A stretch of 64,000 nt of DNA, from the NCBI GenBank assembly GCA_902825215.1, contig LR782234.1, positions 806,001-870,000 of the forward strand, given 5' to 3'. This document shows positions 49,872 through 55,673 of this stretch, piece after piece. Below the pieces are notes generated by a model that saw nothing but the letters and a program-made list of their open reading frames with translations, did no database searches and was not told the DNA's origin. Source of the stretch: Pseudomonas fluorescens. Its GTDB lineage: Bacteria > Pseudomonadota > Gammaproteobacteria > Pseudomonadales > Pseudomonadaceae. Position numbers and translations under genes: made by a program. Within the stretch, counting starts at the first letter, position 1; every line of letters begins with the position of its first letter.

Positions 49872-49950
49872 TGGCGACACTGGCGACATCGGCGACAACC
49901 CACGTCGGACGTGCCCTGGAGCGTGGCGACAAAAGTGGCGACAGTCGCCA
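49872..49950 (-). repeat. Left iteron-like array (TGTCGCC, inverted)
   Basis: Read leftward, TGTCGCC/A units start at 49,943, 49,931, 49,897, 49,888 and 49,879, giving steps of 12, 34, 9 and 9 bases, plus one unit in the other orientation at 49,944. The right array at 52,160-52,242 has the same units with steps 12, 11, 34, 9, 9 and matching inter-unit bases (CCACGCTC, GGGTTGTCGCCG). The two arrays are inverted relative to each other. Confidence 0.8.
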
Positions 49951-50242
49951 CTTCTTGCCCCCTAATGCCCGGAATGCTTGACCGTCTTTTCGAGTGGGTA
50001 TAAAAATTGGCGCACGGATCGCTGTCGTTGACAGCACCAGCCCAGGTAGCCAGAACCTTTAAGGCTACGCCACTTGCGTGGTGGATCTCCCGAAGTGCGA
50101 TTAGCGTCCGGCGGCTCGCACGGTCACTCCCCAAGAGTGATGGATGCCTACTCGACTTAATCTGTCCACTGCGGCAGACGATGGACTTACCCTGCTGCGC
50201 TGCAGCAACCTCACCCTTCGGCACACTCAGTTGCGCCAATCC

Positions 50243-50277
50243 GCGCCCGTCTCTTTCTCCTGGAAAGAGACGGGCGC
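50243..50277. other. Perfect 15-bp stem hairpin
   Basis: GCGCCCGTCTCTTTC (50,243-50,257), loop TCCTG, GAAAGAGACGGGCGC (50,263-50,277). No T tract follows in either direction. It lies between the left iteron array and the DUF3987 gene. The rest of 49,960-50,690 shows no gene I can support. Confidence 0.75.
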
Positions 50278-50698
50278 TCGTACCACTGCTGCAAGCCACG
50301 TCGTACAGGGCATTGCCGCAACTCTCCTCGTGACAATCGACCTGACAACTCCGATTCGTCGCCATCCGCAACGACACAGGCGCCGGTGCCGCAGCCCATG
50401 GAGAGGCTGCACCTGACTGACAGTCAGGCATGCCCCAGGTGTCCAGGTCTTTGCCTTCTCCCACCCAGGATCTGTAGGTGCCGAACTCGTCAGTCGGCAC
50501 AGCCTCTGCCCGCCCGCATCTTCGGATGCGCTAAGGAGGCCAAGTTCATGGGGTCATGCCCTCGTTCCCGGTCGTAAGGAGCCGTTCGTTCCGCGTCAGT
50601 GAACACCTCACAGGTCGCAGGGGCCTTGATCCCTGATAACACTCAACAGCTGTGGCGGGAGTACGTGAGGCAACCAGCAATCACCGAGGAGAGGGCCC

Positions 50699-52105
50699 AT
50701 GCAGCAGTTAGATCCGAAGCTTGAACTACCACGATCCCCTCGACCGTTAATCGAGTCGAATCCGGAGGCCGAACCTTATCCGGTGCAGGCGTTGGGGGGC
50801 ATTCTTGGTCCCGCGGTCGAGCGCATGGCCGAGGTGATCGGCGTGCCTCAAGCACTGGCAGCACAATCGGTCTTGGCTGCCTCAGCGCTGGCCACTCAAG
50901 GTCATGCAGGCTTACACCTCGACGGAAGAAATTACCCCCTGTCGCTGTACCTGATCACGGTGGCCGCGTCAGGTGATCGCAAGACCGCCGCAGACAGGTT
51001 TGCATTGCTGCCAGCACGACAATGGGAGCGTGAACAGTGGCAGCGCTACCGCGAACAGCTCTCCCGGTACCGCGCCGCACAGCGACAGGCGCAGCGTATC
51101 AATCCTGCCGACCCCGACTCCGCAAATGACGTGCTGCTCGAAGCGGAGCCCTCTGCACCTCGGCTGATCACCACAGACCCGACTATCGAGGCCTTAATTA
51201 AGGGGCTCTGTCATGACTTGCCCAGCATGGGGCTGTTCTGTGATGAGGGCGGACAATTCCTCGGTAGCAGCACCATGAGTCGCGATAACCGTTTGAAAGC
51301 GATCACGACCTTGTCGTCACTCTGGGACGGGAGCCCGATTGATCGTGCTCGCTCCATGGTCGGTGAAAGCCTACGAGCCTACGATCGGCGCGTGAGCCTG
51401 CACCTGATGCTGCAACCGTACTTGGCCATGCAGTTACTCAGTGATCCGTTGCTGCAAGGGCAAGGCATCCTCGGTCGCTGTCTGATGACCTGGCCCACGA
51501 GTCTGGCTGGACAACGCAGCTATCAGGCTGTCGACTTGTCCAAAGACGCCGCACTAAAGCGATATCACCAACGCCTTTCGGCCCTGTTTCATCAGCCTTG
51601 GTCACTTTCCGCTGACGGTGCTCTCCAGCTATCACCGCTGAACCTCAGTCCATTGTCCCGTCGTCGCTGGATTGATTTGCATGACGCCATCGAAGCCCAG
51701 TTGGGTGAATTTGGGGAGCTGGCCAGCGTGCGGCCTAGCGGATCGAAAGCCGCCGACAACCTGCTGCGCGTCGCTGGCATTTTGGCCGTGGTGGAGGAGA
51801 GCAGTGTCGTGGAGGTCGATCATATCCAACGAGCCTCCGCTTTAATCGGCTACTACCTCAACGAGATCCAGCGCCTGACTGAACAGGAACCGGTGTGCCG
51901 GGTAAAGGAAGAGGCGGACCGGCTGCTGCGCTGGCTCCAGATCAAAGATTGGAAGCGCTTCAGTATTCGAGAGCTGAATCGCAACGGTCCCCGCTTTGCC
52001 CGTAAGAGCAGCCGTCATGCCGCTAAGCTGCTGGTCGAGTTGATTGATCATCAGTGGCTGATCACCGACGGGAATACCTTCGAGGTGCGCCATGTTCAAT
52101 CTTGA
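50699..52105 (+). CDS. DUF3987-type protein (plasmid/phage replication helicase-like)
   Basis: 468 residues; the ATG at 50,699 follows GAGGAGAG. It fits DUF3987 (YfjI-like): VIGVPQALAAQSVLAASALA, LYLITVAASGDRKTAADRF with a degenerate Walker A (GDRKT), MGLFCDEGGQFLGSSTMSRD with a Walker-B-like CDE, and HLMLQPYLAMQLLSDPLLQG. Such proteins occur on integrative elements and are thought to be replication-type ATPases. It begins a chain of four genes with overlapping ends, and matching iteron-like arrays lie on both sides. Confidence 0.8.
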   Translation: MQQLDPKLELPRSPRPLIESNPEAEPYPVQALGGILGPAVERMAEVIGVPQALAAQSVLAASALATQGHAGLHLDGRNYPLSLYLITVAASGDRKTAADRFALLPARQWEREQWQRYREQLSRYRAAQRQAQRINPADPDSANDVLLEAEPSAPRLITTDPTIEALIKGLCHDLPSMGLFCDEGGQFLGSSTMSRDNRLKAITTLSSLWDGSPIDRARSMVGESLRAYDRRVSLHLMLQPYLAMQLLSDPLLQGQGILGRCLMTWPTSLAGQRSYQAVDLSKDAALKRYHQRLSALFHQPWSLSADGALQLSPLNLSPLSRRRWIDLHDAIEAQLGEFGELASVRPSGSKAADNLLRVAGILAVVEESSVVEVDHIQRASALIGYYLNEIQRLTEQEPVCRVKEEADRLLRWLQIKDWKRFSIRELNRNGPRFARKSSRHAAKLLVELIDHQWLITDGNTFEVRHVQS

Positions 52106-52445
52106 TGAGGCGCTGCGCAACCATTTGGCTCAGCGCCAAAAGGAGCCGAAAGCGCGGTTTGTCGCCGCGACTGTCGCCGCTTTGTCGCCACGCTCAAAGC
52201 CAGGCAGGACAAGGGTTGTCGCCGCTGTCGCCGATGTCGCCACCACCCGTAAAGCTATCACCTCGACGACAGCCATCATCCAATGCTTGAAAGAGGAGGG
52301 CGCGCATCTCTATGTCACCGACAACACGCTGTGTTTTCGCCCGACTGATTGGGCTCAGCTCGCCATCGTGAGCGCGCACTGGCGAGCCCTTTTACATGAT
52401 CTTGCTGCAGTCAATCAGGAGCAGAAAAATGGCTCGGGTCGGTAA
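52092..52445 (+). CDS. Small protein encoded across the right iteron array
   Basis: 117 residues; the ATG at 52,092 follows GAGGTG and overlaps the DUF3987 gene by 14 bases. The N-terminal third includes a repeat-coded VAATVAALSPRSK and VVAAVADVATT from the TGTCGCC units. The C-terminal half (TAIIQCLKEEGAHLYVTDNT, LCFRPTDWAQLAIVSAHW) looks like a folded domain. Family unknown. It overlaps the recombinase gene start by 17 bases. Confidence 0.65.
   Translation: MFNLDEALRNHLAQRQKEPKARFVAATVAALSPRSKPGRTRVVAAVADVATTRKAITSTTAIIQCLKEEGAHLYVTDNTLCFRPTDWAQLAIVSAHWRALLHDLAAVNQEQKNGSGR
52160..52242 (+). repeat. Right iteron-like array (TGTCGCC)
   Basis: Six TGTCGCCG/A units start at 52,160, 52,172, 52,183, 52,217, 52,226 and 52,235. 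The last three are spaced 34, 9 and 9 bases, exactly as in the inverted left array at 49,872-49,950. The array lies inside a coding frame. Confidence 0.85.
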
Positions 52446-53409
52446 GCGAGCTGGGCGCAATTTTGGTTTCGGTCGCCAGCTCAGCTATGCCGGACCGCAA
52501 GCCCTGAAAGAACTGTTTGGCGATGGCCATTTTGGTACCGTCAAAGCCCATAGCGATCGCTGGCAGGCCTTCGTGCAATGGTGTCGATCCGAAGAAGGAC
52601 CGAGGCTCAATGACGCGCGACAGATCGACCGCGAGATCCTCATGCGGTACGCCGCCCACGTGCGCGAGCAGGTTAATCAGGGCAACGTCGGCATCGCCAC
52701 CGCGCAGAATCGCCTGTCCAGTGTGAACCGAACCATCGCCGCGCTGCGCGGTGATCAGTACGTCAAAATACCCAGTCCAAGTAAGGCGCTTGGCTTGCAG
52801 CGTTCAAGCGTTCGTAGTGAGGCGCCGCAAGGCCAAGACCGTGGGCAGGTCGGGCTGATTGCGCAAGCGCTGTCAGAGAGAGGCCAGCAACGAGTGACCG
52901 CAATTGTGCACTTGGCCCGGGAGACCGGCATGCGTTTGCGTGAGGCAATCTTGGCGGATCTGCTCCGACTGCAACGTGAAGCTCGGCAACTGGGCAAGAT
53001 CAACATCCAGGATGGTACCAAGGGTGGTCGGTCTGGCGCATCGGCACCGCGTTGGATCGTGGTCACGGATCAAGTTCGCGATGCTCTGGCTAGGGCCTGC
53101 GAGGCGTTACCCAGTGGCAGTCGAAATTTGTTGGCACCCGATGAAAGCTACAAAGACTTCATACAGAAAGTCGTGCGGCCGGCACGGGACCTCCTGCATG
53201 AGCAGGGTCTGAAAGGCTTTCATGAACTGCGTGCGGCGTACGCCTGTGAGCGCTATGAGCAACTGACCGGCTTCCCTGCACCCATCAATGGCGGTCGTGG
53301 TTATAGAGAAGATCGTCAACTCGATCAGCGTGCACGACAGCAGATCAGTCATGAGTTGGGACATAACCGCATTGATGTGGTGAGTGCCTACATCGGAGGC
53401 CGGCGATGA
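52429..53409 (+). CDS. Integrase_1-type tyrosine recombinase
   Basis: 326 residues from the ATG at 52,429 (AGGAG 7 bases upstream). The N-terminal SAM-like core-binding domain (FGTVKAHSDRWQAFVQWCRS) precedes a catalytic domain with the first Arg in ETGMRLREAILADL, the HxxR box in FHELRAAYACERYEQLTG, and the end SHELGHNRIDVVSAYIGG holding His and the nucleophile Tyr. This family occurs on ICEs and islands beside DUF3987 proteins. Whether it moves the element or resolves dimers is open. The next gene starts within its stop as ATGA. Confidence 0.85.
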   Translation: MARVGKRAGRNFGFGRQLSYAGPQALKELFGDGHFGTVKAHSDRWQAFVQWCRSEEGPRLNDARQIDREILMRYAAHVREQVNQGNVGIATAQNRLSSVNRTIAALRGDQYVKIPSPSKALGLQRSSVRSEAPQGQDRGQVGLIAQALSERGQQRVTAIVHLARETGMRLREAILADLLRLQREARQLGKINIQDGTKGGRSGASAPRWIVVTDQVRDALARACEALPSGSRNLLAPDESYKDFIQKVVRPARDLLHEQGLKGFHELRAAYACERYEQLTGFPAPINGGRGYREDRQLDQRARQQISHELGHNRIDVVSAYIGGRR

Positions 53410-53675
53410 AGTCCGAGTTCGATATAGCGTTGTTTCTGAGCCCCGTGCTCAAAGGTGCGCATGCCACGCGACAGCGGCACATCAGGCAAGCAGAAAGGAT
53501 GCACGAGGTGATTCGTGAGCGCTGGGGTTGCGCGACTCCTTGGTCTTGGAGGGAAAAACATGTGAGATGGTTTTTTGAGCACTATCTGAGTTGCTCAGCG
53601 CCCGCGACCGTCTATTACTATGCGTTAACAGCAGGATTGATCCGTCGCAGAAAGGCGCTACTCGTGGTTGTCTGA
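53406..53675 (+). CDS. Small protein resembling a recombinase core-binding domain
   Basis: 89 residues with an ATGA overlap to the recombinase stop. KGAHATRQRHIRQAERMHEV, IRERWGCATPWSWREKHVRW and FFEHYLSCSAPATVYYYALT resemble the SAM-like N-terminal domain of tyrosine recombinases. There is no catalytic part. It may modulate the Integrase_1-type enzyme. A perfect 18-bp hairpin follows 19 bases later. Confidence 0.65.
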   Translation: MKSEFDIALFLSPVLKGAHATRQRHIRQAERMHEVIRERWGCATPWSWREKHVRWFFEHYLSCSAPATVYYYALTAGLIRRRKALLVVV

Positions 53676-53693: not shown

Positions 53694-53738
53694 AGCCCCT
53701 GAGTATGGGAATGCGGAGCCTTCCCATACTCAGGGGCT
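53694..53738. other. Perfect 18-bp stem hairpin
   Basis: AGCCCCTGAGTATGGGAA (53,694-53,711), loop TGCGGAGCC, TTCCCATACTCAGGGGCT (53,721-53,738). It lies between the four-gene module and the convergent P4-type integrase. It could be a two-way terminator without a T run or a structural recombination or origin site. Confidence 0.75.
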
Positions 53739-53841
53739 TGGCTGAAGAGGCGCAGGCATACCAGCGATTTAGCGACAGTCGTCACTCCTTTCGCCCTGCT
53801 GCACGACACCGATTGTAGCCGGCGTTGCGTACCTTAGATGC

Positions 53842-55098
53842 TCAGCGAATCGGTACGACGTTGCGGTCCCTGGTTTGATTGATGGCCGATGCCGACAGGC
53901 TGCCGGTGGCCGCCTTCTGGATATGTTCACTCCACCAAGCCATCATCGGACGCCGGCGTTCGATGTAATCCGTCCGGTTGTAGGCGCTACGAACTTCGTC
54001 CTTGTCGACATGCGCCAGCGCGACCTCGATCAGCTCCGGATCCCAGCCATGCTCATTCAGGATGGTGCTCGCCATCGAGCGCAAGCCGTGGCTGACTAGA
54101 CGGTCCTGAAAGCCCATGCGCTTCAATGCCATGTTGGCGGTCTGGCTATTGGCATGGGTGCGGGGATTTCTATCTGAGGGGAACACGTATTCTCTGTTAC
54201 CGCTGAGTTGCTTGAGCGTCTCCAGTAACGAAATTGCCTGATCGGTAAGAGGGATTGTGTGCGGCCGACGCTTTTTCATGCGCTCTGGCGGAATGGTCCA
54301 AATGCGCTTGTCGAAGTCGATATCTGCCCATCGCGTGGTGGCTGCTTCGGCAGGGCGGGTCATCGTGTGCAGCTGCCATTCGATCAGGCAGCGGGTCGTG
54401 CGCTTGATACTGGCGTTCGCGATTTCCATCATGAGCTCGGGAAGCTCCTCAGGTGGTAGCGCAGCCATGTTCTCTTTCTTGGGTTTCTTGAATACCGCCC
54501 GAATTCCATTGAGGGGATTCGCAAATATCAGCCCGGAGTTGACCCCGTAGGTCATGATCTCGTTGAGTCGTTGGCTCAATCGTTTCACGGTTTCGAGACT
54601 CCCTTTGGCCTCGATTGGGCGAAGGATCTTGATAACCATCGGAGCAGTGATTTGAGAGAGCGGCGTTGTTTTCATGCTTGGGAAAACATGGAGCGTTAGC
54701 GATCTCCAAATGTCTTCGGCGTAGGCTTTGGTTACGGAGTCTTTCTTCAGCTCGAACCAGGCAGTGGCCACCTTCTCGAAAGTGTGTTCAGTCTCAGCAA
54801 GTTTGGCTTGCCTTACCTCATCGCGCTGGGTTTTGGGATCAGTGCCCAAAGCGAGCAACTCACGCGCCTCTGCGGCTTTCTTCCGGGCGTTGGCTAGCGA
54901 GAGGTCGGGGTATGGACCGAGCGCCATATTAAGACGGCTTCTGGTCAACGGCTCGCGGTAATTGAAATTCCACATCATCGAGCCGCTGGCGCGTACTCGA
55001 AGCTGCAGGCCGTCGCCGTCGCTGAGGACGAAGTCTTTACCAGTTGCCTTGACTGCCTTGAGCTGGCGATCGGAGAGGCGGGTTGCGTTAGTAGGCAT
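53842..55098 (-). CDS. P4-type tyrosine integrase of the ssrA island
   Basis: 418 residues from the ATG at 55,098; GGAGG 8 bases upstream supports it over the longer frame to 55,173. The N-terminal DUF4102-like arm-binding domain reads LSDRQLKAVKATGKDFVLSD, GDGLQLRVRASGSMMWNFNY. The core-binding domain follows, then the catalytic domain with Arg in HTMTRPAEAATTRW, HGLRSMAST, and HVDKDEVRSAYNR carrying the Tyr. It reads away from ssrA, 187 bases from the tmRNA CCA end, the usual place for an integrase that targets a tmRNA/tRNA gene. Confidence 0.92.
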   Translation of the reverse strand: MPTNATRLSDRQLKAVKATGKDFVLSDGDGLQLRVRASGSMMWNFNYREPLTRSRLNMALGPYPDLSLANARKKAAEARELLALGTDPKTQRDEVRQAKLAETEHTFEKVATAWFELKKDSVTKAYAEDIWRSLTLHVFPSMKTTPLSQITAPMVIKILRPIEAKGSLETVKRLSQRLNEIMTYGVNSGLIFANPLNGIRAVFKKPKKENMAALPPEELPELMMEIANASIKRTTRCLIEWQLHTMTRPAEAATTRWADIDFDKRIWTIPPERMKKRRPHTIPLTDQAISLLETLKQLSGNREYVFPSDRNPRTHANSQTANMALKRMGFQDRLVSHGLRSMASTILNEHGWDPELIEVALAHVDKDEVRSAYNRTDYIERRRPMMAWWSEHIQKAATGSLSASAINQTRDRNVVPIR

Positions 55099-55120
55099 GG
55101 GGGCTACCTCCAGCACCGTT

Positions 55121-55172
55121 TTGGTATCCTGAAAGTAGCACTTGGCAGCCCGGGATACCACCTGGGATACCA
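55121..55172. other. Arm-type-like sites upstream of the integrase
   Basis: TTGGTATCC at 55,121 and GGGATACCA at 55,152 and 55,164 lie between the integrase start and ssrA. The last two have the same 12-base step as the TGGAATACC pair at 32,704 and 32,716. They probably bind the integrase N domain and may let it control its own promoter. Confidence 0.55.
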
Positions 55173-55250
55173 AAGCGCCTGGAACTCAGAAATCCTCAAA
55201 AGCCCCCGCTAGCCCTGAAACCCCCGTATTTACTGGATTTTAGGCACAAA

Positions 55251-55284: not shown

Positions 55285-55673
55285 TGGTGGAGCCGGGGGG
55301 ATTTGAACCCCCGTCCGCCAGTACTCCGCTGTCGGTACTACATGCGTAGCCGTGTCTATTAAGTTAACCCTCAGCGACCCGACGGGCAGGGTGCTTTGGG
55401 CGAGTTGTGTAAGTTTTAGCCGCTTCGTCCACAACGTACTGCACGGCGATTCTGTTCTATATGACAATCATTTCGGGTTTACAGACATCCCCTGATGATT
55501 GCTGGACCCGAAGGTACCAGGAGCATTGTCAGCTGCAATTAAGCAGCGAGAGCAACACCGTATTGGTCGTCATTGGCAACTATAAGTAGTTGCAACAGTG
55601 GATTTACGACTTCTGTTACCAAGTCGGCATGCACCTAGAGTTTCGCAACCGGCGTCGAATCCTAAACGGCCCC
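55285..55673 (-). ncRNA. ssrA: Transfer-messenger RNA (tmRNA)
   Basis: About 389 bases. The 5' end GGGGCCGTTTAGGATTCGAC at 55,673 pairs with the 3' acceptor strand CCGGCTCC before ACCA at 55,285, and the T-arm GGTTCAAATCC is intact. The tag frame (55,539-55,577) reads ANDDQYGVALAA then TAA, matching Pseudomonas tags. tmRNA with SmpB frees ribosomes stalled on broken messages and marks the peptide for proteolysis. Its 3' end is the attachment site of the adjoining island. Confidence 0.95.

Follow-up and report, generated by a model that had tools for sequence, protein, structure and literature searches.

Divergent TGTCGCC arrays around a DUF3987 gene of a likely Pseudomonas mobile island, a probable split replication origin

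The current work concerns a module built around a DUF3987 gene in a stretch of Pseudomonas fluorescens DNA of 64,000 nucleotides (NCBI GenBank assembly GCA_902825215.1, contig LR782234.1, positions 806,001 to 870,000 of the forward strand), which is referred to as the window. The gene is flanked by two arrays of the heptamer TGTCGCC, and we assign a probability of about three in four to the reading that these arrays are the two halves of one replication origin, to which the DUF3987 protein (predicted to be an MCM-like helicase) would attach by a winged helix predicted at its C-terminus. The tail of this protein is predicted to read the arrays because one letter of the repeat and one residue of the tail change together across relatives. 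The module sits in a 6.25 Mb chromosome and is likely a Pseudomonas mobile island.

Results

Geometry and significance of the two arrays

The left array comprises heptamers which start, on the minus strand, at positions 49873, 49882, 49891, 49925 and 49937, while those of the right array start, on the plus strand, at 52160, 52172, 52183, 52217, 52226 and 52235, and the two arrays together form a 62-nt inverted repeat with 81% complementarity (arms 49872-49933 and 52181-52242). Eleven of the 29 TGTCGCC matches of the window are located inside these arrays, and 100 shuffles of the whole window gave 13.9 matches on average and 25 at most. A sequence-only reading of this DNA had described an inverted pair of arrays around the DUF3987 gene with the common spacing 34-9-9 plus an interval of 12, the right copy being in a coding frame; the heptamer positions, the inverted repeat and the shuffles indicate that the pair is real, both spacings were recovered, and the right array is contained in an open reading frame (ORF) of 117 codons. 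The third heptamer of the right array is in a reading frame unlike that of the other five, so that a repeated peptide does not explain this array. The 27-bp gap between units 3 and 4 (window 52190-52216) keeps a similar stretch (approximately CGnGGG) preceding unit 4 in both arrays of the clade, and this stretch was also noticed by eye in several distant relatives.

Conservation and orientation among close relatives

Relatives were collected from the 84 of 398 genomes of the family with a DUF3987 match, and from further loci comprising 79 retained of 283 relative-encoding stretches in named genomes, and 7 from viral contigs. The window clade was represented by 72 loci, the window included, which were reduced to 64 distinct modules. 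The right array is present in 62 of these 64 modules, the left array is found upstream at a distance of at most 1.3 kb in 51 modules and of 3.9-5.9 kb in another 4, and a wrongly oriented array was observed at neither place in any clade locus. Allowing at most 2 mismatches, the gap of 34 is kept in 64/64 right arrays and 45/54 left arrays. Absence of the repeats from close relatives with the same genes, for which the sequence-only reading had proposed to look, was thus not what was found, the arrays being conserved in the clade. In a scan of 298 genomes of the genus, the exact 25-nt three-unit core TGTCGCCNNTGTCGCCNNTGTCGCC occurred in 60 genomes and a reversed control pattern in 1, and all 37 same-contig core pairs that were read are divergent, with distances of 2.3-2.5 kb (32 pairs), approximately 0.18 kb (two pairs), and 7.5, 9.3 and 20.8 kb.

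The two positions of the P4-type integrase offer a natural test of this orientation. This integrase is located left of DUF3987 in 32 clade loci, in which an array beside it takes the orientation of a left half, and in 29 of these an array (at most 2 mismatches of 21) is located 7-66 bp beyond the integrase match, the others being L054, L188 and L195. The integrase is located on the right, as in the window, in 19 clade loci, in which the same place would give the wrong orientation; no array is kept beside the integrase in any of these 19 (7-11 mismatches), and the left array is in every case found upstream of the operon. A P4-type integrase was not found in 13 of the 64 clade loci. In the loci read by eye, a hairpin with a conserved loop separates the P4-type integrase from the module whichever side the integrase is on, which would suit a joint movement of integrase, array and hairpin.

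The sole plasmid found in the clade is L002 (NZ_CP043577.1), a circular P. putida record of 19 kb without an annotated Rep and with none in the Pfam matches of the eight proteins checked. It carries the module, a C4 antisense RNA, Zorya type II genes (ZorA2, ZorB2 and ZorE2), and annotated dcm and vsr.

Co-variation of the repeat word with the DUF3987 tail

The Pfam database describes DUF3987 as a domain of unknown function. Kazlauskas 2018 (PMC5862659) predicted that it serves mobile elements as a helicase domain, and suggested that C-terminal winged-helix domains in primase fusions are origin readers. The protein of the window is predicted to fold into an MCM-like ATPase domain followed by a C-terminal winged helix, and this predicted fold supports its earlier designation as a replication-type ATPase; a profile search of PDB sequences returned weak matches, the best being MCM3 at an E value of 0.0043.

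For the analysis of co-variation, 147 aligned proteins were reduced to 88 at 95% identity, of which 67 reached an array score of 7.5 or more and had the core [ACT]GC[AC] while the remaining 21 were excluded, and the omission of L072, L147 and L191 (TGCA core) left 64 non-redundant loci. Of these, 38 loci combine a word ending in GCC with Arg at the residue following a GP motif (Arg432 in the window), and 24 combine a word ending in GCA with another residue there. In a tree restricted to the ATPase domain, the final base of the heptamer changes 8 times, and among 8 independent pairs 6 change in the same way, none in the opposite way and 2 show no difference. Column 432 was the best of 468 alignment columns at three clustering levels. 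L136 and L144, which have near-identical ATPase domains, differ in both word and residue. Azomonas agilis possesses two modules, L149 and L183, with the words TGTCGCA and TTCCGCA and with different recognition segments, as would be expected of two replicons that must not cross-react. A second position, Arg424, is found in 44/44 loci with TGTCGC and in 1/8 loci with TCCGC. Contact of arginine with guanine would be the textbook reading of an Arg/base pairing of this kind.

Arrays in the wider DUF3987 family

In a phylum-wide draw, DUF3987 was encountered in 59 of 398 genomes. Fourteen distant loci (L059-L072), with 31-46% identity to the window, were compared; in 12 of them the two arrays stand head to head where the DUF3987 ORF ends at its 3' side, often within the coding tail, L067 and L071 having one clear half only. 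In the window clade one set is located 3' of the gene and the other upstream. The usual spacing of the distant loci is 9-9-34-11-10, a core of approximately 21 bp, and 10-11-34-9-9, with variants, and the more distant L107, L111 and L152 have 3 + 3 units. The word itself varies (TGTCGCC, TGTCGCA, TTCCGCA, TTCGCCA, TCCTCAA, TCTGCA and others), and the core sequences between the halves differ among relatives.

A uniform statistic, in which two inverted triads are scored against 60 shuffles of each locus, was applied to 153 loci, these being 158 sequences minus five without a tblastn match (L116, L119, L120, L121 and L129). The sample includes repeats of one locus across collections and the 72 window-clade loci, which with one half downstream are hardly able to score. 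Scores exceeded the shuffles downstream of the gene in 65/153 loci, upstream in 3/152 and inside the gene in 0/153, and the scores of at least 38 numbered 38 downstream, none upstream and none inside the gene. In the phylum draw, where loci were chosen by DUF3987 score and not by arrays, 24 of the 30 best matches were testable and not the window's own; of these 24, 6 scored at least 38 and 12 exceeded their own shuffles.

The halves of L207, from a Legionella metagenome-assembled genome, stand in convergent order, and in L157, from a gammaproteobacterial one, a half-array is located approximately 1.7 kb upstream of the gene; both are rearrangements of the same kind of site. Two Psychrobacter plasmids have many GCTTAAG words past the DUF3987 stop codon, and were rejected as proof of replicon function, both also carrying repM. 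By eye, an AT-rich spacer was noticed in one Legionella plasmid. Short cores with a higher AT fraction, of 0.64 and 0.78, occur in L068/L183 and L063/L151. C4 antisense RNA was detected in 3 of 11 loci (L144, L149 and L193) and in 3 of 6 clade loci scanned (L035, L057 and L002), with no window match at the gathering score; int-alpA RNA was detected in L142 and L144. The DUF3987 of L135 had no match among phage records.

Neighbouring genes and the island

The features of the module are collected in Table 1. Its P4-type integrase adjoins the gene for transfer-messenger RNA (tmRNA), the presumed insertion gene, and the module looks like an island inserted at this gene; the window was searched for a second copy of the tmRNA 3' end, which would mark the other end of the island, and gave no match of at least 16 nt. 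No plasmid Rep, ParA/ParM-like or terminase-like family was found among the five proteins of the module in family searches, and NCBIfam assigned a family neither to the DUF3987 protein nor to the products of the 117-codon and 89-codon ORFs.

A radC RNA, which has a table entry in PMC2864571, was found in 6/6 clade loci scanned and is a candidate cis-regulatory RNA leading the DUF3987 operon. DNA similar to it precedes a different gene in three Stutzerimonas plasmids.

Table 1. Position of the arrays and neighbouring features in the window
Feature	Position	Strand	Remarks
Left half-array (A2)	49873..49943	minus	five TGTCGCC heptamers, outward spacing 12-34-9-9; kept in relatives
Sigma-70-like promoter	49978..50007	plus	TTGACC-18-AAAAAT by scan, TTGACC-15-TATAAA by eye; 9/12 matches, consensus match only
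radC RNA, RF01754	50004..50147	plus	leader of DUF3987 gene; 91.3 bits against gathering score of 40
DUF3987 gene, 468 aa	50699..52105	plus	predicted MCM-like AAA+ helicase, proposed initiator
DUF3987 codons 396-468	51884..52102	plus	predicted C-terminal winged helix, proposed array reader
Arg432 codon (motif GPR)	51992..51994	plus	residue co-varying with last base of heptamer
117-codon ORF	52092..52445	plus	holds right half-array; no Pfam family above cut-off
Right half-array (A3)	52160..52241	plus	six TGTCGCC heptamers, outward spacing 12-11-34-9-9
Integrase_1 (PF12835) tyrosine-recombinase-like gene	52396..53409	plus	
89-codon ORF	53406..53675	plus	operon end; no family
Hairpin, 18-bp perfect arms	53694..53738		between operon and P4-type integrase
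Probable third-array remnant	53772..53786	plus	adjoins P4-type integrase
P4-type integrase	53842..55173	minus	
tmRNA (ssrA) gene	55285..55673	minus	presumed insertion site of island

Discussion

A probable split origin and the points that weigh against it

If the arrays are the halves of one origin, each half, of about six units, would gather one hexamer of the DUF3987 protein, and replication of the excised island would start from two hexamers placed in opposite orientation. In the lineage of the window, where the initiator gene lies between the halves, these would meet by looping of the DNA. Bound DUF3987 would probably also affect its own transcription, considering that the left half is located just upstream of a promoter-like site. 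The 117-residue protein and Integrase_1 had been considered as possible readers of the arrays, and both are present in 72/72 clade loci, Integrase_1 being directly behind the right array; Integrase_1 was detected in 1 of 75 non-clade loci (phylum-draw loci included, with flanks short in part), and these candidates were set aside since Integrase_1 is nearly confined to the clade while the arrays continue with DUF3987.

A number of results weigh against a split origin read by the DUF3987 tail. The left half was not found in the searched flank of 9 of the 64 clade modules, and L002 lacks an intact left half, so that both halves may not be required. The loss of the array beside the integrase in 19 loci may represent one event, since these loci are close relatives. 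The phylogeny-corrected p value of the co-variation is only 0.031, column 432 falls to rank 53 at 50% clustering (13 rows), and L127 and L133, whose arrays are both weak, depart from the pattern. Words were oriented by means of the core [ACT]GC[AC], so that other endings could not enter, and those of L108 and L134 are taken in the sense opposite to the usual one. In the phylum draw 12 of 24 loci did not exceed their own shuffles. No array was found at yfjI of Escherichia coli K-12 (best score 6.5, background up to 7.5), which was dropped as a laboratory model. The AT fraction of the core between the halves, where measurable in Pseudomonadaceae, is mostly 0.29-0.52.

Alternative explanations

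The arrays could instead be operator sites through which DUF3987 or another island protein represses or activates the operon, with no role as an origin. Such a role would suit the left array, which ends 34 bp upstream of the start of the promoter-like site, but it does not fit the right array of the window, located in coding DNA, nor the placement of both arrays at the 3' end of the gene in most of the more distant loci, nor a protein with a predicted helicase fold and not a plain regulator fold, and we regard this explanation as unlikely. The sequence-only reading had named plasmid-origin iterons and a repressor array side by side; the iterons are best supported, and a repressor array keeps some probability since the left array is just upstream of a promoter-like site.

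It is quite improbable that the arrays form a centromere-like or packaging site of a satellite, bound by DUF3987 or by a helper protein. Partition sites of the R1 parC type also consist of two sets of short direct repeats, and relatives of the module have P4-satellite RNAs, but the five proteins of the module include no ParA/ParM-like or terminase-like family, and the word co-varies with the helicase protein.

Recombination or arm sites for Integrase_1 or for the P4-type integrase would account for an array directly after the P4-type integrase gene in 29 of the 32 loci with that gene upstream, and for the position of Integrase_1 after the right array in the window clade. Against this, the core between the halves differs among relatives, arrays occur where Integrase_1 was not found (flanks short in part), and the array beside the integrase is kept in none of the 19 loci where the integrase lies on the right, which leaves this explanation very little credence; a tyrosine-recombinase attachment site was set aside for want of a conserved crossover core among relatives.

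That the repeats are due to chance, or are a by-product of a low-complexity Ala-Thr-Val peptide such as the linker which the array region encodes in many relatives, can practically be dismissed in view of the shuffles and control regions, the frame shift of one right heptamer, and the noncoding and conserved left array.

A wider reading and its meaning

Beyond the split origin of the window, a broader reading is advanced tentatively, and its three parts taken together are rather doubtful. DUF3987 as a whole could be a bacterial family of initiator helicases, MCM-like and self-loading, with their own paired-iteron, double-hexamer origins, often in coding DNA; a one-residue/one-base code of the winged helix, in which Arg432 would read the guanine opposite the last C, might allow an origin and its helicase to change words jointly; and in Pseudomonas islands the origin might have been split into two distant half-origins which work only in divergent orientation and are joined by looping. 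DUF3987 (YfjI family) is widespread, and the arrays give the family a likely job, together with a place to look for the origin of each element. The co-variation of array and residue provides a recognition rule testable in a tube, and the split form raises the question of whether half-origins 2 to 20 kb apart can load one helicase pair. If they can, bacteria would have an equivalent of the MCM hexamers that stand opposed in archaea and eukaryotes.

Comparison with known systems

No report of DUF3987 iterons was found in the accessible parts of the literature on DUF3987/YfjI and on iterons in islands, which fits the earlier claim that such an arrangement had not been described. The accessible part of Kazlauskas 2018 (PMC5862659) contains no DUF3987 origin, iterons or recognition residue. 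Unlike iteron plasmid origins of the plasmid Rep type, the module encodes no Rep family among its five proteins. The lambda O gene has iterons within the initiator gene, matching its DNA-binding part; unlike DUF3987, O is not a helicase, and its iterons are four and larger.

Satellite P4 has two separate iteron regions, ori1 and crr, which are needed in cis and are bridged by the initiator, and looping between DUF3987 half-origins would resemble this arrangement. The P4-type integrase of the window and the C4 antisense RNA of L035, L057 and L002 are further likenesses, whereas the window itself has no match to that RNA at the gathering score, the P4 alpha protein is a primase-helicase of another family, and the P4 iteron word and geometry differ.

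In the staphylococcal cassette chromosome mec (SCCmec), Cch2 is a helicase with proposed self-loading whose C-terminal domain binds double-stranded DNA and recognises repeats just downstream of its own gene, and the title of one paper calls an SCCmec helicase MCM-like. The SCCmec proteins belong to other families, Cch being DUF927 and Cch2 of the Primase_Cterm/D5 type, and the Cch2 site has three iterons only.

Origins of Staphylococcus aureus pathogenicity islands and phage-inducible chromosomal islands (SaPI/PICI) differ from the present arrays in that the protein here is DUF3987 and not a SaPI-type Rep, the DUF3987 iterons are within coding DNA in many members, and the sets of the window clade are 2.3 kb apart with the initiator between them. 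The core of the Pseudomonadaceae DUF3987 loci is, moreover, mostly not AT-rich, unlike that of PICI origins, and the arrays are therefore not counted among these origins but are taken to work in a similar manner. The general plan of two iteron sets placed directly 3' of the initiator gene is already known from those islands, in which a helicase initiator recognises short iterons through its C-terminal domain.
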